Below, one piece after another: positions 16,517 to 34,200 of a DNA stretch of 64,000 nucleotides (positions are counted from its first letter, which is position 1; the number at the start of each line of letters is the position of its first letter). A program made the position numbers and the translations under genes. The notes below the pieces were generated by a model, which saw nothing but the letters and a program-made list of their open reading frames with translations, ran no database searches and had not been told where the DNA came from. The stretch lies in the NCBI RefSeq assembly GCF_003626975.1, contig NZ_CP032616.1:4130001-4194000 (forward strand), in the 5' to 3' direction. The DNA is from Pseudomonas sp. DY-1. Its GTDB lineage: Bacteria; Pseudomonadota; Gammaproteobacteria; Pseudomonadales; Pseudomonadaceae.

Positions 16517-16837
16517 ATGCGCCGCTCGCTGTCTGTCGCAGCCATCGCCCTTTCCCTCGTAGCCGGTGCCGCCCAGGCCCAGACCCTGGTGGCGACCAGC
16601 AACATCATCGTCCGCGCGCTGGAGCGCACTCTCGACTTCACCTCAGACACCACGACTTCGATCCGCGACATGAAAGTGGTCGTGGCCGCCCGCGACGACG
16701 CCGCCAGCTTCGTCGCCAGCGCCGGTGAGATTCGTGGCGCCCAGCTCGAGGCCGCTTTCGCCGCCCTGCGCGATCAGTTCCCGCAAGCCCGCGAGGCCAG
16801 CGATCTGGCGCTGGCGGAAACCATCGTCGCCCTCTGA
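16517..16837 (+). CDS. DUF2388 family small secreted protein, paralogue
   Basis: A 106-residue protein with a signal peptide (cleavage near AGAAQA, residue 22). The mature part, containing TSNIIVRALERTLDFTSDTT and ARDDAASFVASAGEIRGAQL, is clearly homologous to the preceding gene. It has its own upstream region and GGAGAG ribosome site, and ends 31 bases before the DUF4105 gene, with which it is probably co-transcribed. Function unknown. Confidence 0.85.
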   Translation: MRRSLSVAAIALSLVAGAAQAQTLVATSNIIVRALERTLDFTSDTTTSIRDMKVVVAARDDAASFVASAGEIRGAQLEAAFAALRDQFPQAREASDLALAETIVAL

Positions 16838-16868
16838 CCTACGCGAGCATCAGCCCCTGAACACCTGG

Positions 16869-18815
16869 TTGCGCCTGATCGGCCTGGGCGTCCTGCTATT
16901 GGCGGGCACTGCCCAGGCCGAGTTGCGCCTGTTGCTGGATGACGAGGGACTTACCACGGCTCAGCGTCAGGCCAGCCAGCAGCTTCTCGATGAAGCTCTC
17001 GCAGCCCTGCCACCGACCTTCGTCCACCGACTGGACCGGGACGTTACCGTGGGTTGGAGCGATGACCTGCCCGAGAACGGTTACGGCCGCGCGACACGTT
17101 TCGATGCCCTGGTGCTCAACCGCGACCTGTTGACCGGCCTCACCGACGGCACAGCGGCCACGCAGAAGACCGCTCGCGTTCACGGAACGGTGCGCCGCGA
17201 AATGCTCGCCACCGTGCTTCACGAGCTGACGCACATCTACGACCGCGCCCGCCTCTGGTCCCCCGCCGAGAAGACGCAACAGTTCCGCTGTCGCAACCAG
17301 GCTTCCAGCAACGGCCGTATAGGCCTGCCTGGCGACTGCCGGGGTCAGACCGAGCGCCGCTTCACCTTGAGCGACGATCCGCGCCTTCTCGACCTTGCCG
17401 GCTGGCCGCAGTACGTCGGCAAGCGCGGTCAGCGCGAGCAGGAAAACCACCAAGTGGCGCGAAGCCCGGATATCTACGAGCTGAAGAACGCCCGCGAGTT
17501 CGTTGCCGTGAACATGGAGTACTTCCTCCTCGATCCGGCCTACGCCTGCCGCCGCCCGGCGCTATACCGCTATTACCGCGAACATTTCGGCTGGGGCCCT
17601 GAACTGCAGGCCCCCTGCAACGACGGCTACGCCTACCTCAATGCCGGCCGCGACTTCGGCAAGCAGCCCCTGGGCAAACTCGACCCGGACCGGGTCTACG
17701 AAGTCGACTACCTGTTCGCCGAGGCCAACCAGAACTGGGTCAGCCGCTGGGGCCACAGCATGCTGCGCCTGGTGATCTGCGCCCCCGGCCGACCGCGCGG
17801 GCCGGACTGCCGCCTCGACCTCGACCAGCATCTGGTGCTGTCCTACCGCGCCTTCGTCGGGGACGTGCAGCTATCGAGCTGGGACGGCCTCACCGGCGCC
17901 TATCCCTCGCGCCTGTTCGTGCTGCCGCTGCATCAGGTGATCGAGGAATACACCAAGGTGGAGCTGCGCAGCCTCGCCTCGGTGCCGCTCAAGCTCAGCC
18001 GCGAGGAAGTAGAAGCCCTGGTGGAGCGCGCTGCCGAGATGCACTGGAGCTACGACGGCGACTACTGGTTCCTCTCCAATAACTGCGCGGTAGAAACGCT
18101 CAAGCTGCTGCGCAGCGGTACTGACCACCCGGCGCTGCGTGATCTCGACAGCATCATGCCCAACGGCCTGCTCAAGCTGCTGGAGGGGCGTGGAGTGGCC
18201 GACCGCACGCCACTGGACGATCCCAAGGAAGCGCTACGCCTGGGGTATCGCTTCGATTCCTTCCGCGACCGCTACCAGGCCATGTTCAAGATCCTTCGCG
18301 AGCGCCTGAAGGTGCCCCAGGAAGAGGTCGAGGACTGGCTTCAACTCACCGCCGAGCAACGCCGGCCCTGGTTCGACAAGGCCGACCTGCGCGCCAGCGC
18401 CGCCCTGCTCCTGCTGGAACAGGCCGCCCAGCGCCGCCAACTCTTGCTGGCCCAGGACGAGCTCAAGCGCAATTACCTCAGCTCCCGCGAGCAGGCCGGG
18501 CAAACCCGCTTCGCCAAGGCCGGCGGCACCCTGGAGCAAATGCTCGCCAACAGCGGATTCCTCAGCCGCCCGGCTGAGCTGCTGCAGGGTGGTTACGGCC
18601 TGCCGCAGAGTGCGGAGTGGCAGCGCCTGGAATCCGAAAGCAGCACCCGCCAGCAGACCATGCGCAAACTCAGCGACGACCTCGACCGCGAAGTTCGCAG
18701 CCTGCTGGAGCCCCAGCGCATGGCTGAGCTGAACGCCACCGAGGCCAACCTCAAGGCCATCGGTGCGCACCTGCGCCAATTGCACAAGGACGCCGGAGGG
18801 CTCGTGCTTCCCTGA
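16869..18815 (+). CDS. DUF4105 family envelope protein
   Basis: A protein of about 648 residues. It begins with a signal peptide (RLIGLGVLLLAGTAQA) and carries the DUF4105 domain in its middle, with EVDYLFAEANQNWVSRWGHS and YWFLSNNCAVETLKLLRS as conserved blocks, plus an HELTH zinc-protease-like motif near residue 120. The C-terminal third is helical. The start is uncertain: no ATG fits, so I use TTG at 16869; CTG at 16857 is possible, and an upstream ATG at 16725 would overlap the previous gene heavily. It probably acts in the periplasm; no enzymatic role is established. Confidence 0.75.
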   Translation: MRLIGLGVLLLAGTAQAELRLLLDDEGLTTAQRQASQQLLDEALAALPPTFVHRLDRDVTVGWSDDLPENGYGRATRFDALVLNRDLLTGLTDGTAATQKTARVHGTVRREMLATVLHELTHIYDRARLWSPAEKTQQFRCRNQASSNGRIGLPGDCRGQTERRFTLSDDPRLLDLAGWPQYVGKRGQREQENHQVARSPDIYELKNAREFVAVNMEYFLLDPAYACRRPALYRYYREHFGWGPELQAPCNDGYAYLNAGRDFGKQPLGKLDPDRVYEVDYLFAEANQNWVSRWGHSMLRLVICAPGRPRGPDCRLDLDQHLVLSYRAFVGDVQLSSWDGLTGAYPSRLFVLPLHQVIEEYTKVELRSLASVPLKLSREEVEALVERAAEMHWSYDGDYWFLSNNCAVETLKLLRSGTDHPALRDLDSIMPNGLLKLLEGRGVADRTPLDDPKEALRLGYRFDSFRDRYQAMFKILRERLKVPQEEVEDWLQLTAEQRRPWFDKADLRASAALLLLEQAAQRRQLLLAQDELKRNYLSSREQAGQTRFAKAGGTLEQMLANSGFLSRPAELLQGGYGLPQSAEWQRLESESSTRQQTMRKLSDDLDREVRSLLEPQRMAELNATEANLKAIGAHLRQLHKDAGGLVLP

Positions 18816-18933
18816 GCCTTTGTAGCTAGCAGAGTGGAGCCCAACGATCCTGCACTCGGGCCGTCGGGTTTCGCGGAGCCCTACCCAACCTACGAATTGA
18901 TTGAAATCCCTTTACGTAGGGTACGGCCTCGAT

Positions 18934-19335
18934 TCACAACTGTTCCTCATCCTCCTCCGGCAACTGCGGGTCCAGATGCAGCCAGGGCAAGCGGCTGCTC
19001 ACCCAGATGTGCCGATCCGCCGGAACGGCCTCCGGATGGTCCAGGGTGGCGATGGTGAGGTCCAGGGTGCTGGGACTGAGGCTGGTAAGCAGCGCCAACT
19101 GGCTGCTGCAATGCGGACAGAAGTATCGGATGCAGGTCGCAGATGAGGTGTACTCGGCTGGTGTTCCGGTCGTCCAGCGGAAGCTCGCCAGTGGTACGGT
19201 CGCCCAAGTTGTGACTATGCCGCCGGTAGTGCGCCGGCAGATCGAGCAATGGCAATGGGCGACATCGCGCAGCGGTGCTTCAACGACGTAGCGCAGCTGC
19301 CCGCAATGACAGCCGCCGGTATGGTGTTCGGCCAT
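18934..19335 (-). CDS. GFA family zinc-binding protein
   Basis: A 133-residue protein of the GFA (glutathione-dependent formaldehyde-activating, Mss4-like) family. The zinc-binding cysteines lie in GGCHCGQLRY (C9, C11), AHCHCSICRR and FCPHCSS, the standard spacing. GFA proteins are small single-domain zinc proteins; most have no proven glutathione-formaldehyde activity. It is convergent with the DUF4105 gene and divergent from the AEC transporter. Confidence 0.85.
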   Translation of the reverse strand: MAEHHTGGCHCGQLRYVVEAPLRDVAHCHCSICRRTTGGIVTTWATVPLASFRWTTGTPAEYTSSATCIRYFCPHCSSQLALLTSLSPSTLDLTIATLDHPEAVPADRHIWVSSRLPWLHLDPQLPEEDEEQL

Positions 19336-19437
19336 GGGGTTCTCCGGCTTGAGCTCTGCCTTTCACCCTAGCAGGCGGTTGCATGCCACCGAGCCGGAAC
19401 TGAAGATAGAGCGTCCCCAGCTGACCCGGATGTCGCC

Positions 19438-20346
19438 GTGCTGACCCTTCTCGAAGCCCTCTGGCCGCTCTTTGCCCTGATCGTCGGCGGCTACCTGCTA
19501 CGCCGCTGGGACTTTCCCGGCGAAGTCTTCTGGCCCGCAGCCGAGCGCCTGAACTACTTCATCCTGTTCCCCGCCCTGCTCTTCAGCAGCCTGGCCACAG
19601 CGCCGCTCGACAACCCGGCACTGCCACGCCTTGCCCTGGCGGTTTTCCTCGGCCTCGGGGCCGGTTGGGCCGCCCTGCTTCTGGCGCGGCGCCTGCTGGG
19701 CTGGCCGACGACGCGCTTCGGCGCGATCACCCAGGGCATCCTGCGCTTCAACACCTATCTCGGCCTCGCGGCCATCGGCAGCCTCTACGGCAAGGACGGC
19801 CTGGCGATGGCCGCGCTGATGCTGGCGCTGATGGTTCCCACGGTGAACCTGATGTCGGTCTGGGCCCTGACCGCAGAGCACGGCGTGAGCCTGCGCGGCC
19901 TGTTGCTGCCAATGGGGAAGAACCCGCTGATCCTCGCCTGCCTGGCCGGTGCCCTGGTCAATCTCGCCGGGTTCGGCCTGCCCGGCGGCACCGACCGCCT
20001 GCTAAACCTGTTGGCGGTAGCCAGCCTGCCGCTGGGCCTGCTCTGCGTCGGCGCCGCGCTGCGTCCGCAGGAGCTGGCCGGTGAAGTTCCGGCCCTGGCC
20101 TGGAACTGCGCCTTGCGCCTGCTGGCCATGCCCGTACTCGCCTTCGCAGTGGCCCGCCTGCTCGACCTGCCCGCCATGGAAAGCAGCATCCTGGTACTGT
20201 TCTTCGCCCTGCCCACCGCACCCACGGCCTATGTGCTGACCCGCCAGCTCGGCGGCGACAGCCATCTTATGGCCGGCATCATTACCCTGCAGACCCTGCT
20301 CGCCGCGGGCAGCCTGTTGCTGGTGATGCGCACGCTAGCCAGCTGA
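19438..20346 (+). CDS. AEC family transporter
   Basis: A 302-residue membrane protein with about ten hydrophobic helices in the auxin-efflux-carrier fold. Typical features are LNYFILFPALLFSSLA near residue 40 and GKNPLILACLAGALVN in the middle. AEC members export organic acids, amino acids or siderophores; the substrate here cannot be told. The start is GTG at 19438, with only a weak ribosome site. Confidence 0.8.
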   Translation: MLTLLEALWPLFALIVGGYLLRRWDFPGEVFWPAAERLNYFILFPALLFSSLATAPLDNPALPRLALAVFLGLGAGWAALLLARRLLGWPTTRFGAITQGILRFNTYLGLAAIGSLYGKDGLAMAALMLALMVPTVNLMSVWALTAEHGVSLRGLLLPMGKNPLILACLAGALVNLAGFGLPGGTDRLLNLLAVASLPLGLLCVGAALRPQELAGEVPALAWNCALRLLAMPVLAFAVARLLDLPAMESSILVLFFALPTAPTAYVLTRQLGGDSHLMAGIITLQTLLAAGSLLLVMRTLAS

Positions 20347-20476
20347 CGCCCCGGCAGTCTGGCCGCCGTTCGTCGACAAATCGCTACGTAATCGGCTCCG
20401 ATCACCGCCGAAAGCTGGCTGAAAGGTTGCGCGCTTAGCATCCGCCCCATTGCCGGCACGAGACCGGCAACCCGAC

Positions 20477-20567
20477 AACAACAAGATTGGTGATCGCCAT
20501 GTTCCGTTCCTGCTGCCGTCCCGGCACCCCTCCGCCCGTTCTCCGCACGTCTTCGGCCACGCGCTGA
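20477..20567 (+). promoter_or_regulatory. CA motif and possible leader peptide ahead of the CitMHS transporter
   Basis: AACAACAA (20477-20484) resembles an Hfq/Crc site. It is followed by GGTGAT and an ATG at 20499 opening a 22-codon frame (MFRSCCRPGTPPPVLRTSSA then TR) that stops at 20567, about 40 bases before the transporter ATG. If translated, this short frame could couple Crc control to the transporter. There is no homology evidence. Confidence 0.3.
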
Positions 20568-20608
20568 CCCGCCCCCCATCCCGCCCGAATCACGCCCGGA
20601 GAACTGCC

Positions 20609-21916
20609 ATGCTGACTCTGCTCGGCTTCGCCATGGTCATCTGCTTCATGTACCTGATCATGACCAAGCGCCTGTCCGCCCTGATCGCCCTGATCATCGT
20701 CCCCATCACCTTCGCCCTGATCGGCGGCTTCGCCGCGGGCATCGGCCCGATGATGCTGGAAGGCATCAGCAAGCTCGCCCCCACCGGCGTGATGCTGATG
20801 TTCGCCATCCTCTACTTCGCGCTGATGATCGACTCCGGCCTGTTCGACCCGGCCGTGCGCAAGATCCTCAAGCTGGTGAAGGGTGACCCGCTGAAAGTGT
20901 CGATGGGCACCGCCGCCCTGGCCCTGATCGTCTCCCTCGACGGCGACGGCGCCACCACGTACATGATCTGCGTCGCCGCCCTGCTGCCGCTGTACAGCCG
21001 CCTGGGCATGAGCCCGCTGATCATGGCCGGGCTGATCATCCTCGCCGGCGGGATCATGAACATGACCCCCTGGGGCGGCCCCACCGCTCGCGCCGCCAGC
21101 GCCCTGCACGTGGATCCGTCGGATATCTTCGTGCCAATGATCCCAGCCATGATCGCTGGCGCCGTCGCCCTGTTCGGCCTGGCCTGGGCCTATGGCAAAC
21201 GCGAGCGCGCCCGCCTCGGCGTGCTGCACCTGCCGGATGACCAGCTCAACCATGACGAAATCAGCGTTTCGCAGTTCCCGGAAGCCCGCCGGCCCAAGCT
21301 GCTGTGGGTGAACGGCGCGCTGACCGCCGCTCTGATGGTGACCCTGATTACCGGTCTGCTGCCGTTGCCGGTGCTGTTCATGATCGCTTTCAGCATCGCC
21401 ATGATCATCAACTACCCCTGCCTGCAGCAGCAGAAGGAAAGGGTCGCGGCCCATGCCGGCAACGTGTTGGCGGTAGTCGGCCTGATCTTCGCTGCGGGCA
21501 TCTTCACCGGCATCCTGTCCGGCACCGGCATGGTGGAAGCCATGTCCAAGAGCCTGCTGGCGGTCATCCCGCCGTCCATGGGCCCTTACATGGCGGTGAT
21601 CACCGCGATCGTGAGCATGCCGTTCACCTTCTTCATGTCCAACGACGCTTTTTATTACGGCGTGTTACCGGTTCTGGCCGAGGCTGCGAGCCATTACGGC
21701 ATCAGCCCGGTGGAGATGGCGCGAGCGTCTATCGTAGGCCAGCCGGTGCATCTGCTCAGTCCACTGGTACCGTCCACCTACCTGCTGGTGGGGCTGGCCA
21801 AAGTGGAGTTCGGTGACCACCAGCGCTTCACGTTGAAGTGGGCGGTGATGATTTGTCTGTGTATCCTCCTCGCCGCCTTGTTGCTGGGTGTGTTCCCGCT
21901 CTTCGGATCGCACTGA
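20609..21916 (+). CDS. CitMHS family citrate-metal:proton symporter
   Basis: A 435-residue membrane protein with about twelve helices of the CitMHS family, which takes up citrate complexed to Mg2+ or Ca2+ with protons. Hallmarks are SLDGDGATTYMICVAALLPL (near 110) and GGIMNMTPWGGPTARAASAL (near 150), plus MSNDAFYYGVLPVLAE near 350. The ATG at 20609 follows CGGAGAA and begins MLTLLGFAMVICFMYL; the longer reading from 20450 is not hydrophobic. No CitAB-type two-component system adjoins it here. A hairpin follows. Confidence 0.88.
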   Translation: MLTLLGFAMVICFMYLIMTKRLSALIALIIVPITFALIGGFAAGIGPMMLEGISKLAPTGVMLMFAILYFALMIDSGLFDPAVRKILKLVKGDPLKVSMGTAALALIVSLDGDGATTYMICVAALLPLYSRLGMSPLIMAGLIILAGGIMNMTPWGGPTARAASALHVDPSDIFVPMIPAMIAGAVALFGLAWAYGKRERARLGVLHLPDDQLNHDEISVSQFPEARRPKLLWVNGALTAALMVTLITGLLPLPVLFMIAFSIAMIINYPCLQQQKERVAAHAGNVLAVVGLIFAAGIFTGILSGTGMVEAMSKSLLAVIPPSMGPYMAVITAIVSMPFTFFMSNDAFYYGVLPVLAEAASHYGISPVEMARASIVGQPVHLLSPLVPSTYLLVGLAKVEFGDHQRFTLKWAVMICLCILLAALLLGVFPLFGSH

Positions 21917-21940
21917 CAGCCGCTGAATGACACCCCGATC

Positions 21941-21976
21941 AAGCCGGAATCTGCGTAAGCTCTTTCCGGCTTGTTC
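21941..21976 (+). terminator. Hairpin after the CitMHS gene
   Basis: AAGCCGGAA and TTCCGGCTT flank a 14-base loop, followed by TTGTTCG. It lies 24 bases after the stop and 43 bases before the terC-like start. Confidence 0.55.
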
Positions 21977-22018
21977 GTACTCTCCCCAAACCAAGAAACT
22001 CACGAGGATCAACGCATC

Positions 22019-22777
22019 ATGGAATGGCTGACCAGCCCGGAAATCTGGGTCGCCTTCTTCACCCTGACCGCCCTGGAGATCGTCCTGGGCATCGACAACA
22101 TCATCATGATCGCCATCCTCGTTGGCCGTATGCCGCCGCACATGCAGGCACGCACCCGCCTCTTCGGCCTGGCCCTGGCGATGATCACCCGCATCCTGCT
22201 GCTGCTCTCCATCACCTGGATCATGCGGCTCACCACTGACCTGTTCCACCTGTTCGGCCAGGGCATCTCCGGCCGTGACCTGATCCTGTTCTTCGGCGGC
22301 CTGTTCCTGCTATGGAAAAGCACCACCGAGATGTACCACAGCCTGGAAGGCGAAGATGAGACCGACGCGGCGCCCTCCGGCGCGGCGCGCAACTTCATCG
22401 GCACCATCATCCAGATCGCCATCATCGACATCGTGTTCTCCCTGGACTCGGTGATCACCGCCGTCGGCATGGTGTCCCACGTGCCGGTCATGGTCGCCGC
22501 GATCATCGTCGCCGTCCTGGTGATGATGCTGGCCGCCGGTACCATCAGCGACTTCATCGACAAGCACCCGAGCCTGAAGATGCTGGCCCTGGCCTTCCTG
22601 GTAGTGGTCGGTACCGTGCTGATCGCCGAATCCTTCGAAGTCCACGTGCCGAAGGGTTACGTCTACTTCGCCATGGCCTTCTCCCTGGCCGTGGAGGCGC
22701 TCAACATCCGCATGCGCATCGCGCGTGGTCGCAAGGAAGATCCGGTGAAACTGCGCAAGGACATTCCTGGGCAGTAA
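22019..22777 (+). CDS. TerC family integral membrane protein
   Basis: A 252-residue TerC-family protein with seven to eight hydrophobic segments. The conserved ALEIVLGIDNIIMIAILVGR block (near 20) and its internal repeat DIVFSLDSVITAVGMV (near 137) carry the acidic residues characteristic of the family. TerC-like proteins are associated with tellurite resistance and, in several bacteria, with manganese efflux and protein metalation. I found no yybP-ykoY type manganese riboswitch in the leader. The ATG at 22019 follows CGAGGA. Confidence 0.88.
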   Translation: MEWLTSPEIWVAFFTLTALEIVLGIDNIIMIAILVGRMPPHMQARTRLFGLALAMITRILLLLSITWIMRLTTDLFHLFGQGISGRDLILFFGGLFLLWKSTTEMYHSLEGEDETDAAPSGAARNFIGTIIQIAIIDIVFSLDSVITAVGMVSHVPVMVAAIIVAVLVMMLAAGTISDFIDKHPSLKMLALAFLVVVGTVLIAESFEVHVPKGYVYFAMAFSLAVEALNIRMRIARGRKEDPVKLRKDIPGQ

Positions 22778-22794
22778 GCCGAAGCAATGAAGAA

Positions 22795-22818
22795 CGGGGC
22801 CGATTGGCCCCGTTTTTC
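22795..22818 (+). terminator. Rho-independent terminator after the TerC gene
   Basis: ACGGGGCC and its complement around GATT, with a TTTTTC tail, start about 17 bases after the stop. Confidence 0.85.
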
Positions 22819-22834
22819 ATTGCTCACGGTTTAC

Positions 22835-22927
22835 TTGTAGGGGCGAATTCATTCGCCAAGGGCTGCGCAGCTGCCCCCCCCCGCGGTCCAAGGGCAGGCC
22901 TTCGGCCTGCCTGGCGAATGAATTCAA
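22835..22927. repeat. REP-type inverted pair
   Basis: TAGGGGCGAATTCATTCGCC at the left and CTGGCGAATGAATTC at the right bracket a GC-rich middle containing GGCAGGCCTTCGGCCTGCC. The right end abuts the stop of the minus-strand gene that begins at 24772. The pair has the form of a BIME made of two REPs. Confidence 0.75.
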
Positions 22928-22930
22928 TAT

Positions 22931-24772
22931 TCAATACCCCTTCAATTCCTCCGCCTTGAAGCCACGGAAGCTGCCACCGCCCAGCAGCAGTCTCAGCAGG
23001 CTGTCCATGGTCTGCAGGTCGTTGTCGAAACCGCCATGGCTGGTGCTCCGGCTGGCCGGGCTGCCGGTGTCGGCCACCACCAGGGAACTGCCGGGCGGCT
23101 GCTGGGGCGGCTGGAACTTCTGCATACCGAGCAGCGGTACCCGCCGCTGCTTGTCTTCCAGCGCATTGGAAACCAGGTAGAGCAGCGACTTGCGGTAAGC
23201 CCCGGCAACGTTGTCCTCCTGCTCAGCCTGATCTGACAGGATGAACAGAGTCTGCTGGCGAATGCCCTTGCCCAGCGCCTTGAGGAAGGTCGACTGGTAT
23301 AGCTCCAGGGTGCAGGCCGGGGCAAACAGCACGAGATTGTCGATGACAGGACCATTCAGCGCCTGCCAGACCTGCAACAGACGGGCATGCCAGATGGAGC
23401 CGGCGCTGTGCCCAACCAGATGCACCTTGGGCGCCTGCGCCCCCTGGGCCGCCAACCAGCCGACCAGGCGTTGCAGCGCCAGCGTGCCCGCCGCACCCTT
23501 GCGGAAGGCCCGCTCGACGTCCAGCTTCATTTCCTGCCAGAGTGCGAACCCGGCCGGCTGCACCAGGCTCTCCATCTGGTTATCCCACCACGAGCTCACC
23601 GATCCCACGCGTTCCCCCACCAGCGGCAGCTTGCGGAGCAGGATGTCGCCCAACTCGGCCAGCAGCCCGGTTTCCCAGATGAAATGCAGTTCGTGGATCT
23701 CGTTATCGCGACACGCCGGTCGCCACTTGAAGGCGCGCATGGCCGAGCCGTTCACGCTGTTCAGGCCGCCATGGGCATAGAGCAGCAAGTGCTGCGGCCG
23801 GCTGTGCTGCAGCTCTTCGATGATGGCGTCCAACTGGGTCAGGTCCGAGGCGTACTGGCCCAGGCCGTCGAAGTGGCCATCGTCGATGTGCAGGTAATGC
23901 AGGTAGATGGCCTCCTGGGGCGGGCCCTGCAAGGCCAGGCGCGCGGTGCCGCCATCGGACACGTATCGGGTCGCGGTATCGGTGACGCCATGGTTCACCG
24001 CAACGCCCAGCTGGGCGACCCAGACATCCCAGACATTGGCCTCGAAATCGGCATAGCTCCACAGCGCCACACCGGCGTACACGGCCTTGCCCTGACGGTA
24101 GCCGCCCCAATCAGGCCCCCAGGAGTTCTGCACCAGGAAGCCGTCACGGGTGTAGCCGACGATGGCGAAGGCGTGCCCACCGCCAACGTCCAGCGCATCC
24201 GGCTTCCAGTCGATCACCCCGCGCCGTGGCGAGCGCCAGCCCTCGTGGGTACGCGCCGAGGCGAACAGCACGCCGACGTCACGCAAGGCCGCCTGGACGT
24301 CGTTGATCCGCGAGAAGACCCGGAAATACGCGCCCAGCGGCATATCCAACGCCTCCTGCTGAATCGCCGGGGTCAGGCCGCCGCCACCAGCCCAGCTGTC
24401 TTCCTGGCAGACACCGTGCTTGTGCCAGCCCTTCATCGCGCCCCGGGCGCTGCTGAAGTCGTAGTTCTCACCTGGCCACTGGTCGTAGCGCCTGGCCATG
24501 GCGAAGAGCATCGCCGGGCTGGCCCGGCCGGGCAGCGCGCACCGGCTACGCAGGTAATTGACCGCCGCAGCCAGGCCGAAGCCCGTGCAGGCACCTTCCT
24601 CGCCCTGGTCGAGGATGTGCAGCAGTTGCCAGTCCGGGAATAGCTCGTCGGGGAGTGGCGCCAGGGATGCGGAATAGGTGAGGTCGCGAAAATCCATGGA
24701 GTCGCGGCGGACATCCAGCTGCCTGGGCGCAGCCCTCCTGCGGGACTTTGTCGTGGCGGTACGCTTGGCCAT
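22931..24772 (-). CDS. Papain-like cysteine protease fused to an alpha/beta-hydrolase domain
   Basis: A 613-residue two-domain protein. Residues 45-250 match the C1A papain fold: Gln56 and Cys62 in LDQGEEGACTGFG, His200 in GGGHAFAIVGY and Asn216 in QNSWG give a complete catalytic set. Residues 280-600 look like an alpha/beta hydrolase: YAHGGL (334) for the oxyanion hole and VHLVGHSAGS with nucleophile Ser456. No signal peptide is seen; the N terminus is basic (MAKRTATTKSRRRAAPRQ). The ATG follows GGGAGG. It stands alone, followed by a REP pair. Targets are unknown; the fusion suggests an enzyme acting on both peptide and ester bonds, or a protease with a lipase-like partner domain. Confidence 0.8.
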   Translation of the reverse strand: MAKRTATTKSRRRAAPRQLDVRRDSMDFRDLTYSASLAPLPDELFPDWQLLHILDQGEEGACTGFGLAAAVNYLRSRCALPGRASPAMLFAMARRYDQWPGENYDFSSARGAMKGWHKHGVCQEDSWAGGGGLTPAIQQEALDMPLGAYFRVFSRINDVQAALRDVGVLFASARTHEGWRSPRRGVIDWKPDALDVGGGHAFAIVGYTRDGFLVQNSWGPDWGGYRQGKAVYAGVALWSYADFEANVWDVWVAQLGVAVNHGVTDTATRYVSDGGTARLALQGPPQEAIYLHYLHIDDGHFDGLGQYASDLTQLDAIIEELQHSRPQHLLLYAHGGLNSVNGSAMRAFKWRPACRDNEIHELHFIWETGLLAELGDILLRKLPLVGERVGSVSSWWDNQMESLVQPAGFALWQEMKLDVERAFRKGAAGTLALQRLVGWLAAQGAQAPKVHLVGHSAGSIWHARLLQVWQALNGPVIDNLVLFAPACTLELYQSTFLKALGKGIRQQTLFILSDQAEQEDNVAGAYRKSLLYLVSNALEDKQRRVPLLGMQKFQPPQQPPGSSLVVADTGSPASRSTSHGGFDNDLQTMDSLLRLLLGGGSFRGFKAEELKGY

Positions 24773-25044
24773 GCTGACCTCCCTGTGCGGGTCCGGGCGA
24801 CAAAGGAAGGATTGACCGCTTTCAACGCCTGGGAGGGATTGCTGACGAATGGCGACATGGGTCGGTCGCTCGCCACGCGGCCATTGGCGGCCTCAACTGC
24901 CTATATGCAACTGATTCAGAACGACTTTTCATACCATCAACAGCGTTGATGTTCTCTATCTAGAGTGATCACTTTTTAATCGCACCCCCGTCCGTAAGAT
25001 TGGCTCCGTACCCAGTTTCCAGCCCCCTTGAGGAGCCCCCGATC

Positions 25045-25416
25045 ATGAAAACCCAAGCCTTCGCCGCCCTGTTCATCGCCAGCCTGAGCACCAGTGTCTT
25101 CGCCCTGCCGTCCGACTCCCAACCGGTACTGGGCGAGTCGAAGGACGGCGCCTACATCCAGGTCATCGAGCCGGTTGCGGCCGAAGGCAGCTTCATGGTG
25201 CTGGACCGCGTAGCCGAAGGCGGTTCCGATCGCACGGGCGCCAACCGCATTGCTGAAGGTGGCTCTGACCGCACCGGTGCCAACCGTATTGCTGAAAGTG
25301 GTTCCGACCGCACCAATGGCTTCCGCGTAGCTGAAGGCGGTTCCGACCGTACCAACGCTATCCGTGTAGCCGAAGGTGGCTCCGATCGCCTGCCGCAAGC
25401 CCAGCACATCAGCTGA
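25045..25416 (+). CDS. Secreted 13-residue tandem-repeat protein
   Basis: A 123-residue protein with a signal peptide (cleavage after SVFA, residue 20). After a short linker it carries five consecutive 13-residue units of the form R-V/I-A-E-G-G-S-D-R-T-x-x-x from residue 55 to 119. The ATG at 25045 follows GAGGAG. Similar AEGGSDR-repeat proteins occur in Pseudomonas, some labelled phage infection protein, but the evidence for that label is unclear to me. Repeated Ser-Asp-Arg with Glu suggests a soluble, possibly metal- or surface-binding periplasmic or exported protein. A terminator follows. Confidence 0.75.
   Translation: MKTQAFAALFIASLSTSVFALPSDSQPVLGESKDGAYIQVIEPVAAEGSFMVLDRVAEGGSDRTGANRIAEGGSDRTGANRIAESGSDRTNGFRVAEGGSDRTNAIRVAEGGSDRLPQAQHIS
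25207..25401 (+). repeat. Five 39-bp in-frame tandem repeats
   Basis: Five 39-base units encode RVAEGGSDRTGAN and its variants in the preceding gene. The third unit has ESGSDR in place of EGGSDR and the last ends in LPQA. Unit-to-unit DNA divergence at third positions shows the array is maintained for its protein sequence rather than being freshly expanded. Confidence 0.85.
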
Positions 25417-25438
25417 TCGCAACTCGCTGTAAACCCTC

Positions 25439-25468
25439 AAAGCCCGGCGGATGCCGGGCTTGTTGTTT
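25439..25468 (+). terminator. Terminator after the repeat-protein gene
   Basis: AAGCCCGGC and its complement around GGAT with a TTGTTGTTT tail, about 23 bases after the stop. A partial REP half (GGGGCGAATTCTTTCGC) follows immediately at about 25471-25487. Confidence 0.8.
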
Positions 25469-25636
25469 ATGGGGCGAATTCTTTCGCAACTGGCCGCCCA
25501 GCGGCCCGTAGCCCGTACGCTGGTCCGGGCCAGGCTGGTCGAGCGGAGCTCGGCCTAACGAAGAAACACCCCACCCCGCACCGTTTGGCTTCGTTCCTCT
25601 GCCCAACCTACAAGGGCGGTTCCAGCCGCGTCTTGA

Positions 25637-27481
25637 TCAGAACAGGCTCAACTGATCCTGTCCCTTGTCCGCTATGGGTGCCGCCGCTGGTGGGCTGTCG
25701 GCCTGCGGCATGAATTTCAGGCGCTCTGCCAATCCTGCTGCTCGCTCGGCGCGAGTCGAGACCGCCTCAGCCAGGCGTGCCGGCAGGCCCCAGATCTCTA
25801 CCTTCTTCTTCGCCCGGGTGATGCCGGTGTAGAACAGCGCGCGGCTGAGCAACGGGCTGGGCTGTTCCGGCAACGCCAACAACACCTCGGTGAACTCCGA
25901 CCCCTGGCTCTTGTGAACCGTCATGGCGAAGGCACTGTCGTGGCTGGGCAGGCGGGCCGGGGCGAAGGGGCGATAGCCCTCGTCGCCTTCAAAGAACACC
26001 CGCAGGCCATGGGGCGTGGCCAGGCACAGGCCGATATCGCCATTGAACAGACCAAGGGCGTAATCGTTCTGCCGCACCATCACCGCCCGACCGGGGTACC
26101 AGCGCTCGCGGGAAGGCACGCCCAGCCGTCGCTTGATGCGCGCCTCGAAGGTTTCGTTGATGCCACTGACACCCCAGGGGCCTTCACGCTGGGCGGTCAG
26201 GGCGCGGAAACCGTTGAAGGCGGCGAACGCCGACTCGGGGTCGGCAGTGCGTACAGCAGCGAAGTAGGGGGCATAACCCGCCTCCAGCCGCTCCAGCAAG
26301 GCAGTCGGGGTAGGGCCAGCGTTCCAGACCAGGTCCGGATGGCCGCCACGTAGCAATTCCTGAGTGCCGCGAGCATCACCGCCGTTGATGCGCCGCGCCA
26401 GTTCGCCAATGCCGCTGTCGCCCGCGAAACGATGGCTATGGGTCAGCAGCACCACGGCATCGCCCAGGCGCGAACGGGGTTGCTCCACCGGCACTGGCTG
26501 GCCGGTGATACGCGTGAGGTCTGCCGCCGCCACGGAGTCCAGGCCACGGCCTTCGCAAAGCTCAGCGAACACCGCGCCAGCCTCCACCGCCGCCAGTTGG
26601 TCCTTGTCACCCAGCAGGATCAGCCGGGCATTGGGAGGCAGGGCGTCAAGCAGCTTGGCCATCAGCGCCAGGTCGACCATGGAGGCTTCGTCCACCACCA
26701 GCACATCCAGCGGCAGCGGGTTATCAGCGTGATGGCGAACCTTTGGCGTGTCGCCACGGCTGCCGAGGAGCCGGTGCAGGGTGCGTGCCTCTTCGGGCAG
26801 GACTGCCTTGATAGTGTCGCTCACCGGCAGTTCGGCCTTGGCGTTGCGGATGGCCTCGGCCATGCGCGCGGCGGCCTTGCCGGTGGGCGCAGCCAGGCCG
26901 ATAGCCAGCCGCTCACCGCCCGGCTGTTCCAGCAAGGCCGCGAGCAGGCGCACCACGGTGGTGGTCTTGCCGGTGCCGGGGCCACCGGAGATCACCGCGA
27001 GGTTGCGGCGCACGGCCTGAGCCGCTGCCAGGCGCTGCCAATCCGGCTGCTGGGTATTGCGGGCGAACAGCCGCTGCAAGGATTCGCCCAATTGCACTTC
27101 GTCCACCACAGGTCGGGCCAGCGCGCGTTGCAGCAGGTTGTCCGCCAGATGCGCCTCATAGGCGTGGTAGCGGCTCAGGTAGAGCCGGGCGCCATCCAGG
27201 GTCAGCGGCGCATAGCCGCCGGGCGGCGCCACCAGGGGCGATGCCTGCAGTGCGGTCAGCCAGACGGGCAGGGTGGGGGCCTGTACACCGGAGCCTCCCT
27301 CGACAAACAGCGATTGTCCGGCCCAGCGCGCCAGGGGCAGGCAGACATCACCAGCTCCCAGCGCCTGGCAGCACAGGGCAGCGGCGGCCAGCACAGAGTC
27401 CGCCGCCTGCGGATCGAGGCGTTGCAGGCTCTCGGTGAAATGGCGCTCCAGCGGTCCCAGGGACCAGTCGGCCAGGCCCAT
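25637..27481 (-). CDS. recD: Exodeoxyribonuclease V alpha subunit
   Basis: RecD, 614 residues, the 5'-3' helicase subunit of RecBCD that processes double-strand ends for recombination repair and degrades foreign linear DNA. Walker A is GGPGTGKT (166-173); DVLVVDEASMVD is the Walker B region and AMTVHKSQGSEF the helicase motif near the C terminus. Its ATG overlaps the recB stop in a TGATG arrangement, showing translational coupling. Order on the strand is recC-recB-recD. Confidence 0.95.
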   Translation of the reverse strand: MGLADWSLGPLERHFTESLQRLDPQAADSVLAAAALCCQALGAGDVCLPLARWAGQSLFVEGGSGVQAPTLPVWLTALQASPLVAPPGGYAPLTLDGARLYLSRYHAYEAHLADNLLQRALARPVVDEVQLGESLQRLFARNTQQPDWQRLAAAQAVRRNLAVISGGPGTGKTTTVVRLLAALLEQPGGERLAIGLAAPTGKAAARMAEAIRNAKAELPVSDTIKAVLPEEARTLHRLLGSRGDTPKVRHHADNPLPLDVLVVDEASMVDLALMAKLLDALPPNARLILLGDKDQLAAVEAGAVFAELCEGRGLDSVAAADLTRITGQPVPVEQPRSRLGDAVVLLTHSHRFAGDSGIGELARRINGGDARGTQELLRGGHPDLVWNAGPTPTALLERLEAGYAPYFAAVRTADPESAFAAFNGFRALTAQREGPWGVSGINETFEARIKRRLGVPSRERWYPGRAVMVRQNDYALGLFNGDIGLCLATPHGLRVFFEGDEGYRPFAPARLPSHDSAFAMTVHKSQGSEFTEVLLALPEQPSPLLSRALFYTGITRAKKKVEIWGLPARLAEAVSTRAERAAGLAERLKFMPQADSPPAAAPIADKGQDQLSLF

Positions 27482-30400
27482 CAGTGGCCCTCCTCGAACA
27501 ACAGGTCCAGCGCATCCAGCAAGCTGTCGGCAGGACGATGGAAGAACACACCCGCGTCCGGCATGCCGCGCAGGAACAGGTACCAGGCACCGCCCAGTTG
27601 CTCGCTGGAGAAACCGTCCAGGCGCTGGCGCAGGAAGCGCCGCAGCGCTACGAGATAGATCAGGTACTGCAGGTGATAGTGCTCGGCGGCGATGGCTTGC
27701 GTCAGGCGATCGCCGCCGTAGTAGCTGGCATCCGGGCCAAGCCAGTTGGACTTGTAGTCGGCGATGTACCAGCGCCCGTCATGCTCGAAAGTCAGGTCGA
27801 TGAAGCCCTTCATGAAGCCCTTGAGGGTGTCGAACTCCAGACGCTCGGCGGCCGCGCGCATGGCATCCGGCAGTGCGTGGACAGGATCGGTGAGGATCGC
27901 CCGCAGACGGCCGACATCCAGCCCGGCCACCGGGAAAGTGAAACCCAGCTCCGGCAACCGTCGGTGAGCGGCGAGGGCGGACAGACTCAGCCCCTGGCCA
28001 TCCAGGTCGGTATCCAGCACCAGTTGCAGGTGGGCGCTGGCGATGTCCGTCCAGCTGTCCGGCAGGCCGTGGCCCTGCAAATGCTTCTGCACCAGCGCCG
28101 ACAACTCGCCCTCGCCGCGCATCCAGTCTTCCAGCACCGCGTGCAGGCAGGTACCGGCGCGGGCGCCGCGGGGGAAAGCGAAGAAGCCGCTGCCCGGCTC
28201 GGTGGCCGGCGGTATCACCAGACCGTCACGGTCAGGCGCTTCCATATGCAGGCCGGCGGCCAGGCCAGAGAAACTACCCACCCGCCAGGCGCTGGCCAGG
28301 GTCCGCTCCAGCGTGGCGAGACCGGCCGGGGGCAGCGCGCGGGATTCGCCTTGCGCACTGGCTTCCTCGGCCTGCAGTTCGACAACCGCAATCTGACCTT
28401 CGCTGGCGTTGGCCAGGGTTTCCAGCTCGGCGCGCAGGGCGACGCCATCGCGGCTGGCCAGGTGCCGGGCGAGGGCGGCCAGTACATCGGCCTCGTCCAG
28501 TTCGCGGCCATGCAGCAGCCAGGCGAGGGCGCAACTGTGCAGGCCATCCTCCGGAAGCTCGCCATCCTTCTTCGCCTTGGGCAGGGCCACGGGGCCCCAG
28601 TGCAGCCAGAGACGGTCGCGGGCACGGGTCAAGGCCACATAGGCCAGGCGCAAGCGTTCGGCAAAGCGTTCGCGGCGGGCAGTTGCGCGATGGTTGTCGT
28701 AATCCTCTCCGCCGAGATCGAGCAACGGCGTTCCGTCCTCGGCGTGGCAGGTGATGTCCTCTTCGCGGCGCAACAACGCGCCGTCCCAGAGGTAGGGGCA
28801 GAACACCAGCGGGTACTCCAGGCCCTTGCTGGTGTGCACGGTGACGATCTGCACCCGCTCGGCATCGCTTTCCAGGCGCAGCAACGCATCGTCGCCATGG
28901 CTCTCGGCGGCACGCTGGGCGTTGAACCAGGTCAGCAGCGGTTCCAGGCCAGGCCGCTGGAGGCTTTCGGTTTGCAGCAGTTCGGCCAGGTGGAGGAGGT
29001 TGGTCAGCCGTCGCTCGCCATCGGGCAGGGCAATCAGACGCTCGGCCACGCCTTGCTCATCGAGCCAGGCGCGGAAGGCCCGCATGAAGCCCTGCTGTTG
29101 CCAGAGCTGGTGATAACGCTCGGCATTCTCGCGCTCTTCGTCCCAGGCGTGTTCGTCATCCTGGCAGCGCGCCAGTTGCTGCGCGTCCCGGCCCAGCAGG
29201 CGGGTGGACAGGGCATAGCGCAGCACGCCTTCACGACCGGGCTCGGCGTAGGCCGCCAGTACTGCCGCCAGTTCCGCAGCCTCTTCGCTGTGCCAGACGC
29301 TGTCTCGCCCCCGACGCACGCTGGGTACACCACGGTCGGCCAGCTCGGCAGCCACATCACCGGCCTGACGGTGGCTGGCCACCAGCACAGCGATGTCCCC
29401 GCCCTTGAGTGGCGAACGTACGCCATCTTCTTCGAAATATGCCTCTCCACGCGCACTGGCGGCCAGCAGACCGGCAATGCGGCGCGCGGTATCCGTGGCC
29501 ACCGCACCGCCCGCTTCGCCCTTGCCAAGCGGTTCATCCCCCAGCCACACCAGTTCCAGCGGCGCAACGGCTTCAGGCAGCACCAGCCGCGCGCGAGCCT
29601 TGCTGCTGGCTCCCACGGGCGGGTAGTCGAGGCCGGGTTCGGCGAATGGCAGGGGGCGGTCGAAGACCTGATTGAGGGCTGCGATCAGCTGCGGTGTGGA
29701 ACGGTGGTTGGTGTCCAGGCTGTACTGTCGCGCGGCCTCGTCGCGGGCCTTGAGGTAGGTGGCGAGGTCGGCGCCACGGAAGGCGTAGATGGCCTGCTTG
29801 GGATCGCCGACGAAACACAGGTCGCCCCGTTCTTCGTATACCCGGTGGAAGATCGCGTATTGCACCGGGTCGGTGTCCTGGAACTCGTCGATCAGCGCCA
29901 CCGGATAGCGCTCGCGCAAGGCCTCGCCCAGCGCATCGCCTGCCGGTCCGCACAAGGCGTCGTCAAGGCGATTGAGCAGATCGTCGAAGGCCAGCAGACG
30001 CTGGGCAGCCTTGCGTGCCGGCAGCTCTCGGTTGAGGGTGTCCAGCAGGCGTACCTGCAGGTCGATCAGACGGGCCTCACCCGCGGGAGCGGCTTCTGCC
30101 AGGGCGTCGAAGAGCCTTTGCAGCGCGGCACAGAGGGCATGGTCCGGCGCATCGAAGCCCTTCTTGGTGGCCTTGGCCAGCGCCTCGGTGCCGAGCTTCT
30201 CCAGGCCCGTTGGCGGCGCGAAGAGGGCGGCGGGGTCGGCGAAGTAGGCATCCAGTTCGGTCTGCCATATCGCAAATTTGGCGGCGTCGTAGCTGCGCTT
30301 GTTGAGGCCATCGAGCTGGGCGAGCTGGGCCACGCACTCGGCACCCTGGCGTTGCCAGAAAGCCTGGGCGTGGGTCCAGGCTTCGCTGGCAGCGGACAGA

Positions 30401-31008
30401 TCGCCAGCCTTCAGCTCACGCGGTTCGACACGCAGGTAAGGCTTGCCCAGGTGCGAACGCAGGCGCTGGCGCAGCGAGACCGGGGTGATGCGCTTCTGCG
30501 CCAGGAAGCGCGCCCAGGCCGGTTCGGCTTCCGCCAGCTCGCGCCGCCAGAGATCGGCGAGCAGCGCATCCAGCACTTCACGGTCGTCGGTTGCCAGTTC
30601 GCTGTCGAAGTCGCCTCCGGCCTCGAACGCGGCATCCTGAAGCGCGCGTTGGCAGAAGCCGTGGATGGTGAAGATGGCCGCCTCGTCGAAACCATGCACC
30701 GCCAGCAACAGGCGGCGATGGGCGTCTTCACCGGGGTACTGGGCATACAGCCCGGCCAGCACCGGATCGGGCGCCAGCGCGCCCTCGTACATGGCGAGCA
30801 ATGCCGCCAACCGCGCGCGAATGCGCTCGCGCAGCTCGGCGGTAGCGGCCGTGGTGTAGGTCACCACCAGGATCTGCCCGACGCCGAGCTGGCGCTCCAG
30901 CAACAAGCGCGCATACAGGGCGGTCAGGGTCCAGGTCTTGCCGGTACCGGCGCTGGCCTCGATCAGGCTGCGGCCGGTGAAGGGGTCCTTGAGCAGGTCG
31001 AGGCTCAT
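27481..31008 (-). CDS. recB: Exodeoxyribonuclease V beta subunit
   Basis: RecB, about 1175 residues, the 3'-5' helicase and nuclease subunit. Walker A is ASAGTGKT (18-25), [15 protein letters not shown] the UvrD-type motif II, and the C-terminal nuclease carries [12 protein letters not shown] (near 1085), containing the catalytic Asp-Tyr-Lys. I start at the ATG at 31008 ([20 protein letters not shown]) because the in-frame extension to 31083 is read out of a REP element (CRSEFIRE). A GGAGCAGCC site precedes it. Confidence 0.95.
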
Positions 31009-31039
31009 GGCTGCTCCTTGTCGGTCAGGCAGGTGACCG

Positions 31040-31215
31040 GTTTCGCGAATGAACTCGCTCCGACAGGGAGTTCGGGACGGCACCGGACAAACCCCCTCTC
31101 CCTCTGGGAGAGGGTTGGGGTGAGGGAAATCAACGCCGCTGCCTGGTTTCGACAGGCAGACCTGCGGTCTGCTTGGCGAATGAATTCGCCCCTACAGATG
31201 AATTCGCCCCCAGAA
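31040..31215. repeat. REP cluster between recC and recB
   Basis: At least two REP-type units fill most of the 237-bp gap: a left one with TTTCGCGAATGAACTCGCTCC near 31044-31064, and a right one with CTGCGGTCTGCTTGGCGAAT ending in a duplicated TGAATTCGCCCC near 31145-31212. They interrupt an operon that is otherwise tightly packed, and could reduce recB-recD expression relative to recC or stabilise mRNA ends. Confidence 0.75.
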
Positions 31216-31245
31216 GTGAATTGGCACCTGCTGGGGTACACGGCG

Positions 31246-34200
31246 TCATTCCTCATCGTCATCTCCCGCCAGGGCATCCAGTGCCGGGCCGAACAGGGTT
31301 TCGGCCAGTTGTTCGAAGCGCTCGTCCAGGGGTTCACGATCGCGGAAGGCGAGGGCGTACCAGGGGTCATGGGATTCGCCGAGCGGGCCGAAGTCGATGC
31401 CTTCCCAGGCCACACGCGCCTTGGAACGGGCAGCGTCGATCGGCTCCTTGCGACCGGGTTTGCGCAGGCCGTGGGCGAAGCCATAGCTGGCCTTGGTCAA
31501 CAGAGGCAGGGGCGCGCATAGAGCTTCGCGATAGGCGTGCAACCAGGGCTCCAGCAGTTCGCGGGCGTTCGCCAGGGGACCGGCCTGCCAGTCGCCAGCC
31601 GGCGATAGCAGGCGGCTGTCGCGCGCAATGCCGGGCGTGGCGGCGAGGTTGAGCAACAGATGGCGCAGCCAGAACGGCGCGAGCTCCCATTCGCCGAGTC
31701 GGTTCAGGCGCCAGCCAAACAGGCCGTCGGGCGTCACCCCATCGAGCCAGCCGTGAATGCGTACACCGGCCAGTTCGATATCCACCAGCAACGGCTGCGG
31801 CACCGCCTCCGGTCGCGCCTCAAACAGGCGCGGGGCGAAGGCACGTACCGGGCCACGCAGCTGGCCCCAGAGGGCGTGGCCCAGCTCGCCGACCGGTAGC
31901 CAGCCAGCGGCACGGGCAATGCGTCGTTCGTCAGTCTCAGACCAGTCGCGTTCCACGGCGTCCAGGGCGAGCTGGCGCAGGCCGCGCCAGGCCGGGCCTT
32001 CAAGGCTGAAAGGCTCGTCGCTGGCCAGGGCTTCCTCGGTGTCCGCCAGACGCAGGCCAAGGCGCTGTTCGAGGAGAAAGCGCGCCGGATGGCGGAAGCA
32101 CTGGATCAACTGCGAGGGCTCGAGGGTCAGCCAGTCGGCATCGGGCTCCGGTAGCGGCAAGGCGAAGGGCGCCGCGGCGGCCTGGGGCGTTTCCGCCAGA
32201 CGTTGAGCCGCGCGGAACCAAGGCGCGGCAAAGCCGGCCTGCTGGCCACCGACGAAGTTGCCCGAGGCGAAAGGTTGCAGCGGATGCATCACCAGCACCC
32301 GCTCGCTTGCCTTGTGCGCACCGGCAATAGCGGTGAGGTCGATGGTTTCCAGCAGCTCGCTGACCAGCACGGAAGGCGGCAGGTGCGCGTTATCCCGTGG
32401 GTCGCGTCCGACAAAACTGAGATAAAGCCCGTCGCGTGCCGATTGCAGGGTTTCCAGCAACAGGTAACGGTCGTCCAGGCGCCGGGCGCGATCACCGCGC
32501 CGGGGTTTGCGGCTTATCAGGTCGAAACCGGCCGCCGGGGTACGACGCGGGAAGGCGCCGTCGTCCAGTCCAAGCAAACAGACCTGGCGGAACGGCAGGC
32601 TGCGCATGGGCACCATGGTGCAAAAGGTCACCGCGCCGGTCAGGAAGCCCGAAGCGCCGCTGCCCTGGTCCAGGGCTGCCACCAGATGCTGGCGTACCAG
32701 GGCCAGTTCCAGCGGGCGCTCGATGCCGGCGGCCTCGGCCTGTTCGCGCAAGGCACCGCAGGCCTGGGACAGCAGCAACAGGGTGTCGCCGGCCTCGCGC
32801 TCGTCGAACAGCAGGTCGATCAGGCCCTGCAGGGTTTCCGCCCACTCCGCCAGTGGACGCGGCCGGGCCATGTCGTCGGCCAGGACACCAAGGCGCTGGA
32901 CGAAGCCGGCGAGACGGCCGAGCAACTGCGCACGAGCGCCCTCCAGGGCATCCAGCGGCCAGTTGTCGCCGAGCAGGGGCGGGGAGTCACCGGCCAGTTG
33001 CGGCGGCGCGGCGAAGCCCAGCAGCAGGCGGTCCAGCCCCTGCCTCCAGCTGAAGGCGCCTTCCTCGGGCAGGCCAAGGCGCGCGCGGTGGGCGCCATCA
33101 CGCCCCCAGCGCACGCCGGCGTCACGCAGCCAGTCGCGCAGCAGCGGAAGGTCTTCGTTCTCGATACCGGCGCGAGCGGCCAGGGCCGGCTGTTCCAGCC
33201 AGGCCAGGAGTTCTTCGGCGGCGAAGCGGCTTTGGGGAAGCTCCAGCAGGGCGAGGAAGGCTTCCACCAACGGCAACTCGGCGCGCAGGCTGCGGTCGGC
33301 CAGGCTGAAGGGGATGCGCGGCACGCCTTCGCGGGGGGCGAAGACCGCTTCGATATAGGGGGCATAACGCTCGATGTCCGGCGTCAGCACTACCACCTGG
33401 TCGGGGGTGAGTGCGGGGTCGGCCTTGAAGCGCGCCAGCAGCTGGTCGTGCAGCACCTCCACTTCGCGCAGGGGCGAGTGGCAAAGGTGGACTTCCAGGG
33501 AGCGATCATCCTCGCGCAGGCTCATGCGCTCTTCGGGACGACGGGTGCGCAGGCGCAGGATGTCGTTCTGCACGGCGCGCAGCAGACTGCTGTCATGCAG
33601 GTCGTCGTCCTCGGCATAAACGCCGATGTCCTGGCCGCCCAGAGTGAACAACGCATCGAAAAAATCGCGGCCCTGCTTGCCGAGGCTGGCCAGCAGCGGA
33701 TGGCCGACGTCCAGGTACCAGTCGTCGATGCCCGGCTCCGGCAACCGCGCCAACTCGCGGATATCGCGGATGTCGCCCCATGCCTCGCGGCACGGGTTGA
33801 GCGCGAAGAGGATCACCTCGCAATGCCGCGCCAGGCCTTCCAGTACGCGCATGTGATGCGGCGGCAGGCTGCTGATGCCGAACACCACCAGGCGTTCCGG
33901 CAGACCTGCAATGCCTTCGCCTGCGTGCAGTCGCGCCAGCAGGTCACCCAGCAGGCGCGCACGATGCGGATGGCCATCGGCAGTGAGTTCGCGCCAGAGC
34001 AGCGCCTGCCACTCCTCGTCCGCGCCCAGTCCCAGCAATTCGCCACGCTCCCAGGTGTCGAGCCAGTCGTCGCGGTAGAGCAGGTACTGGTCGAAGACGT
34101 CGGCGATGCGTGAGCCGAGGGTCAGGCGGCGGCGTTCGTCGCCGCCTCCCAGGTACTGCGCCAGACGAGGTGCACGGGCTAGGTTGTCGGGTTCGCAGAG

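Follow-up and report, generated by a model that had tools for sequence, protein, structure and literature searches.

Prokaryotic homologues of caspases were surveyed in 2012, and the accessible portion of that survey describes four metacaspases carrying an Amidase_2 domain, links them to programmed death, and states that a Chitinophaga caspase protein with an amidase and a GDSL lipase 'seems to be a highly destructive weapon' (PMC3501461). In the accessible sections of a 2020 study, the caspases of VMAP systems are always paired with a gene for an alpha/beta-hydrolase, and another system contains lysozyme and papain-like peptidoglycan peptidase domains (PMC7159879). When the papain family was surveyed in 2023, multidomain prokaryotic C1A proteins were set aside, to judge from the part of that text at hand (PMC10380794). 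Within the open-access literature, a body outside which most subscription journals fall, we found no paper on a fusion of a papain-type protease with an alpha/beta-hydrolase. One such fusion is encoded by Pseudomonas sp. DY-1 in the window, the whole stretch of 64,000 nucleotides that was analysed. It is a real and widespread two-enzyme protein, which we regard as a variation, with papain as the protease, on the metacaspase-hydrolase theme and not as a separate kind.

The open reading frame, as read from the window, begins with ATG and encodes 613 residues (Table 1). A chance open reading frame was rejected on the ground that the sequence is conserved among homologues. Both the GC content and the third-position GC of the gene fall within the range of the neighbouring genes, and no sigma-70-type promoter was found in positions 22700-25500. 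In Pfam, Peptidase_C1 (PF00112) scores 18.8 bits against a cut-off of 20.7, Hydrolase_4 scores 18.7 against 27, and Abhydrolase_3 scores 12.9 against 25; NCBIfam and PADLOC return no match for the 613-residue protein. Most relatives among the best 120 of 6037 homologues carry PF00112, and the closest named relatives among these 120, from Metapseudomonas resinovorans, are annotated 'C1 family peptidase' (90% and 85% identity). To a sequence-only reading the fusion had seemed unfamiliar because it lacks a family model that names it; it is indeed unnamed by any such model, but the search for homologues reveals it to be widespread. The residue numbering of that reading was correct on re-check, and the absence of an export signal that it noted agrees with hydropathy, by which none is evident.

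Table 1. Features of the fusion gene, its flanking genes, and wall hydrolases adjoining relatives on plasmids. Coordinates are positions in the window; L numbers denote loci, which in this table are on plasmids. Counts out of 130 refer to aligned relatives, and counts out of 240 to papain-type and caspase-type hydrolase sequences taken together.
Feature	Position or locus	Strand or orientation	Basis
Whole CDS, C1A protease and alpha/beta-hydrolase fusion, 613 aa	22931..24772	-	ORF, homologues, models
Basic N-terminal tail, residues 1-20	24713..24772	-	Model confidence low; variable among relatives
Predicted C1A (papain/xylellain-like) domain, residues 22-258	23999..24709	-	Fold model and sequence
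Gln56, predicted oxyanion-hole residue	24605..24607	-	130/130
Cys62, predicted protease nucleophile	24587..24589	-	130/130
His200, predicted protease general base	24173..24175	-	130/130
Asn216, predicted third protease residue	24125..24127	-	129/130
Predicted alpha/beta-hydrolase, residues 280-613, family common to amidase-caspase proteins	22934..23935	-	Model and sequence
His334-Gly335-Gly336, predicted oxyanion (HGG) motif	23765..23773	-	H 238/240, both G 240/240
Ser456, predicted hydrolase nucleophile (GHSAG)	23405..23407	-	240/240
Glu517 and Asp520, candidate catalytic acid past penultimate strand	23213..23224	-	E517 240/240, D520 239/240
His579, predicted hydrolase catalytic histidine	23036..23038	-	240/240
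recD, constant upstream neighbour in genus (context)	25637..27481	-	TIGR01447, 556 bits
terC-family gene, convergent downstream neighbour (context)	21971..22777	+	PF03741, E 8.6e-49
CHAP beside fusion gene	L096, L145		Pfam
PG_binding_1 (well above cut-off) and sub-threshold CHAP (22.7 against 26 bits)	L136	divergent	
Amidase_2 with PG_binding_1 beside fusion gene	L138		Pfam
GH19 beside fusion gene	L141		Pfam

Residues 22-258 constitute a predicted C1A protease with a complete catalytic set. The structure model of this region adopts a papain fold, and the alignment with 130 relatives reveals the Gln-Cys-His-Asn order of peptidase subfamily C1A. Cys62 and His200 are both kept in every one of the aligned relatives. 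The likeness to xylellain, a C1A peptidase of Xylella fastidiosa (PDB 3ois), resides in this domain: the 291-residue 3ois chain matches the protease only, with the hydrolase representing an addition in the fusion. The stretch between the two domains, residues about 261-280, is modelled with low confidence.

Residues 280-613 model as an alpha/beta-hydrolase, with the papain domain modelled likewise confidently. The two complete catalytic domains proposed from the letters alone thereby survive scrutiny, in that both fold confidently and both active sites are kept across relatives. In the hydrolase model, the strand at 449-455 leads to Ser456, that at 504-512 to Glu517 and Asp520, and that at 562-567 to His579, an arrangement corresponding to alpha/beta-hydrolase topology. 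Asp514 was rejected as the catalytic acid, as it is not kept in the caspase-type sequences described below. Structure comparison of the model matches this fold to solved alpha/beta-hydrolases, with lipases, thioesterases and carboxylesterases tied among the top matches; the top Foldseek match, a weak one, is the DDHD domain of Nir2 (E 3.1e-4). The DDHD phospholipase domain and HSL-type carboxylesterases have the alpha/beta-hydrolase core in common with residues 280-613, but the TM-scores are only about 0.3. Pfam, searched up to E 10 with weak matches filtered, gives three families, and neither DDHD nor a carboxylesterase family is one of them. The HGG motif resembles that of HSL-type esterases. 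We designate residues 280-613 a predicted lipase-like alpha/beta-hydrolase, lying below every Pfam cut-off.

The same hydrolase occurs in proteins bearing a different protease. A 994-residue protein encoded on a plasmid of the cyanobacterium Kovacikia minuta contains Amidase_2 (PF01510) at residues 22-154 and Peptidase_C14 (PF00656) at residues 688-944, and the region between these domains is 30% identical to the DY-1 hydrolase (E 8e-40). When this region was used as the query, 1906 of 8000 scored proteins matched at E <=0.001; as read from the domain table for the best 120 of the 1906, the query included, PF00656 is present in 118 and PF01510 in 110. All 120 of the best caspase-type matches fit a hydrolase model derived from papain-type sequences, at E 4e-50 or better, and none of the 120 matches the papain model. 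In a hydrolase tree of 72 rows, the 26 caspase-type rows, one of them a duplicate, form a single clade (98/96, recovered in all 200 bootstrap trees) among the papain-type rows; the root is arbitrary, and the tree gives no order for the papain and caspase forms. Judged by sequence, the hydrolase is the unannotated middle domain of bacterial caspase proteins, its predicted catalytic residues being identical. Pfam finds no C14 match in the DY-1 protein, which is therefore a relative, and not a member, of the metacaspase-hydrolase-amidase proteins. Full amidase-hydrolase-caspase matches are rare in the class sample introduced below, where they occur in one genome (G121), split over two frames.

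Members of these families were also observed in other arrangements. A Rhizobium gallicum plasmid encodes a separate hydrolase-family frame without papain about 5 kb from the fusion gene (L144:12689-13774, minus strand), and a Mesorhizobium plasmid carries, in a row, a hydrolase-family gene, a caspase, a PLD-like and trypsin protein, and a trypsin (L104:7131-15065). In Roseivivax (L094:6912-9788), Trypsin_2 precedes a C1A domain of the fusion family that has no hydrolase match, and thus represents another protease partner.

The fusion is widespread yet patchy. Of 8000 candidates scored in the protein search, 6037 are homologues at E <=0.001, and the best 120 of these are 44-99% identical to the query and align over at least 95% of its length. 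A genome scan confirmed at least 566 of 588 matched stretches, and the 80 loci that were kept derive from proteobacteria, Nitrospinae/Nitrospirae, planctomycetes, Verrucomicrobia, Acidobacteria, Chloroflexi and others. Eight of 95 relatives possess the gene, as do seven of 18 genomes of the genus, DY-1 included. In the class sample, the protein was matched in 20 of 369 genomes, with a near-full-length single match in 13, a count that leaves out three genomes (G290, G391 and G393) in which the protein aligned in pieces. That it might in general be a phage gene was rejected, with four of 50,697 phage records matching and none covering more than 33% of the query; a plasmid gene in general was likewise rejected (29 matches in 72,556 plasmid records, 14 of them with at least 80% cover). 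A relative is encoded on three viral contigs; one of these copies is almost complete and shares its stretch with an integrase-like open reading frame recognized by eye.

Within the genus, recD adjoins the fusion gene in all seven carriers, and the order recD, fusion gene, terC holds in all six whose other side was read. The same order is found in Pseudomonas sp. GV071 (70% identity), whereas in two loci bearing the label P. viridiflava recD is present and the available stretch contains no terC match. Eleven genomes of the genus lack the fusion gene, and six of these were opened. In three, recD and terC are present with no trace of the gene between them, about 90 bp being left at one such empty site; the stretch read in the remaining three yielded no terC. 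The adjacency to recD and the empty sites therefore mark the fusion gene as a lone accessory gene that occupies one fixed position in the genus. A role as a guard of RecBCD was rejected, since the recD gene cluster is confined to two Pseudomonas groups, and the placement therefore looks positional. That the gene stands alone is true for the DY-1 genome, in which we found no GH108 gene and no caspase-type hydrolase copy.

The nine neighbours scanned (positions 16725-34491) include recC, recB, recD, terC, a PtrA-like protein, a citrate transporter, an auxin-efflux-carrier-like gene scoring below its cut-off, and two genes without an NCBIfam match. One plus-strand gene at 25000-25416 encodes a 138-residue protein with a signal-like N terminus and, by eye, about five tandem RVAEGGSDRTN-like repeats; it weakly matches the NCBIfam PtrA co-regulatory N-terminal domain, and it is also seen at the recD/terC locus in three loci with the fusion gene (L002, L003 and L135) and in one without it (L128). 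Another, at 16725-18815 on the plus strand, encodes a 696-residue protein with DUF7844 and a periplasmic Lnb_N domain in Pfam and no NCBIfam match.

To survey neighbours more broadly, 81 loci were merged by hand by species into 69 groups, and L010, with broken frames and the gene uncalled, was dropped to leave 68; genes were called with a custom gene caller, and the 25 commonest Pfam families were visible for 125 immediate neighbours. The commonest family is GH108 with PG_binding_3, in eight of the 125, followed by a family with three. In eight of the 68 groups GH108 lies directly downstream on the same strand, at a gap of -1 to 90 bp between called genes, or 8 to 117 bp when measured from the end of the match to the first ATG; the other 60 have no GH108 neighbour. 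A model built from these eight found no further GH108 in the same 80 loci at E 1e-3, and two more GH108 loci (L102 and L103) were identified. In the class sample, GH108 is present in 23 of 369 genomes, comprising three of the 13 carriers against 20 of the 356 others (one-sided Fisher p 0.04), and it adjoins the fusion gene in all three carriers having both; the surveys overlap, in that G452, one of these three, is the same as L048, and L097, L099 and L100 are likewise earlier loci. No close same-strand neighbour exists in 41 of the 68 groups. Ten such neighbours from seven other loci include no wall hydrolase; three match no family, and the remainder are rhodanese, DUF1451, CDP-alcohol phosphatidyltransferase, Peptidase_S15, UbiD, MgtC and Exo_endo_phos proteins. 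Neither a conserved sensor gene nor a holin-like one was seen near the fusion. A defence island was rejected, PADLOC giving at most three members per family among the 125 neighbours.

Wall hydrolases of other families recur on plasmids. Thirteen of the 15 matches with at least 74% cover were opened (H12 and H15 were left out), and Pfam was run on chosen neighbours. An adjacent CHAP, Amidase_2 or GH19 wall hydrolase is present in five of the 13 loci (Table 1), and the other eight have none among the genes named or scanned. The L144 neighbour, a DUF2272 and SH3_3 protein, does not enter the count of five, and no Pfam family was matched by the neighbours scanned in L137, in L143 and on the downstream side of L136. 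Caspase proteins lie near the fusion gene in three of the 13: a caspase with a GDSL-lipase match directly follows it in L096 and L145, and L092 contains a divergent cluster of a GDSL-lipase-type caspase, a trypsin and a YLATT protein. On the S. meliloti plasmid of L096 (3964-11864), one strand encodes a caspase-FGE protein, CHAP, the papain-hydrolase fusion and the GDSL-caspase, with a VapBC pair upstream. By a crude test for export, a mean hydropathy of 1.9 over a 19-residue window, the threshold was reached by none of 121 papain-type proteins, 120 caspase-type proteins and 14 neighbour proteins (13 wall hydrolases and the DUF2272 protein); hydrophobic N-terminal patches, expressed as 11-residue means, occur in the GH108 protein of L047 (2.45) and the DUF2272 protein of L144 (2.37).

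Our leading explanation, offered tentatively as one that is possible and still short of probable, is that the protein serves in the cytosol as a demolition factor with two enzymes, the papain counterpart of the metacaspase - alpha/beta-hydrolase - amidase proteins. Its basis is the two folds as models, the invariant catalytic residues, the lack of an evident export signal, the common hydrolase family and the wall hydrolases that neighbour a minority of relatives. Action would probably take place within the producing cell, in lysis or suicide. Damage, infection or a developmental cue might serve as the trigger, upon which the protease would cleave cellular or partner proteins and the hydrolase would cleave ester bonds, most likely in membrane lipid. 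The resulting injury to the inner membrane could give an endolysin-like enzyme access to the wall, and a wall hydrolase, where present, would complete lysis and the producing cell would die. The wall hydrolases next door in part of the family suggest a kit for cell breakdown. Counted against this explanation are the majority of loci that lack a wall hydrolase, the solitary DY-1 gene without GH108 or a caspase-type copy, and a patchy distribution that would suit any accessory function.

The same two enzymes might instead be protease and lipase-like warheads of an antibacterial effector, injected into other cells independently of Sec by a type VI or other contractile injection apparatus. The classic injected trio consists of a peptidoglycan hydrolase, a lipase and a protease, a correspondence that speaks for an effector and against a demolition factor, and both the lack of an evident Sec signal and the two VipA loci of the DY-1 genome are in keeping with it. 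Polymorphic toxins also use papain-like and alpha/beta-hydrolase toxin domains, according to the available part of their description (PMC3482391). However, VipA is found in two of 13 near-full-length carriers (two of 16 with G290, G391 and G393) against 68 of 356 other genomes, and this want of enrichment weakens the type VI reading; nor are immunity, VgrG, PAAR or Hcp genes among the 25 commonest Pfam families of the 125 neighbours. The recurrent immunity or secretion gene for which the sequence-only reading had advised a search was accordingly not seen among those families, and we consider an injected effector unlikely. That reading had left the role open between toxin, effector and peptide-ester processing; an effector or toxin is plausible, but the link to caspase proteins and peptidoglycan hydrolases had been missed.

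If the papain domain were instead a peptidase that processes its own chain, detaching itself and so releasing or activating the hydrolase, the latter would be the sole working part. A single chain ordered protease then enzyme, with a low-confidence stretch between the two, would accommodate such a cleavage, and releasing peptidases of papain type are described for polymorphic toxins in the portion of that account at hand (PMC3482391). Equal conservation of the two active sites argues against it, as do the position of the protease on the opposite side of the hydrolase in the caspase form and the linker columns of a 32-sequence alignment, which look variable by eye; self-release is in our judgement quite unlikely. 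An ordinary catabolic or processing enzyme encoded by an accessory gene, acting on peptide esters or a storage polymer or in detoxification, would fit a lone gene at one chromosomal site that is empty in some genomes, with GC and third-position GC like its neighbours, and the unrelated neighbours found in most relatives. It leaves unexplained, however, both the repeated pairing with several unrelated wall-hydrolase families and the company of caspase, trypsin, YLATT and FGE-caspase genes on rhizobial plasmids, and we regard it as distinctly improbable.

The demolition explanation can be extended to a modular machine built around the unnamed hydrolase, with a protease slot filled by papain or caspase and a wall slot filled by GH108, GH19, CHAP or amidase, fused or adjoining, which would together carry out a holin-free, enzymatic suicide lysis. 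In it the hydrolase would breach the membrane and thereby free an endolysin-like enzyme, with a papain taking the part played elsewhere by a caspase. This extension is rather doubtful. What is new in these results is the common unannotated hydrolase and the recurring wall hydrolases. The former provides a predicted catalytic identity for the unannotated middle of many bacterial caspase-amidase proteins, and papain and caspase have been swapped around this one common hydrolase. The lysis model, if true, would represent an enzymatic route to programmed death that can be tested with two point mutants.

Among described systems, the VMAP ternary conflict systems consistently pair a protease with an alpha/beta-hydrolase, as here, a likeness drawn from their description in the accessible sections of the source (PMC7159879); in Mesorhizobium L104, a member of the DY-1 hydrolase family likewise stands as its own gene beside a caspase gene. 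They differ in possessing MoxR, vWA and VMAP components, none of which is encoded among the nine DY-1 neighbours scanned at 16725-34491. The metacaspases with Amidase_2 (PMC3501461) share with the DY-1 family the theme of a protease and a wall hydrolase, and caspase-amidase proteins as analysed here contain the same alpha/beta-hydrolase domain, which the four proteins of the survey may also carry. In the metacaspase-amidase proteins, the protease is a caspase located C-terminal to the hydrolase, whereas in the DY-1 fusion it is a papain located N-terminal to it; and the amidase is fused in the former, whereas the wall hydrolase of the papain form is encoded by a separate gene or is absent.
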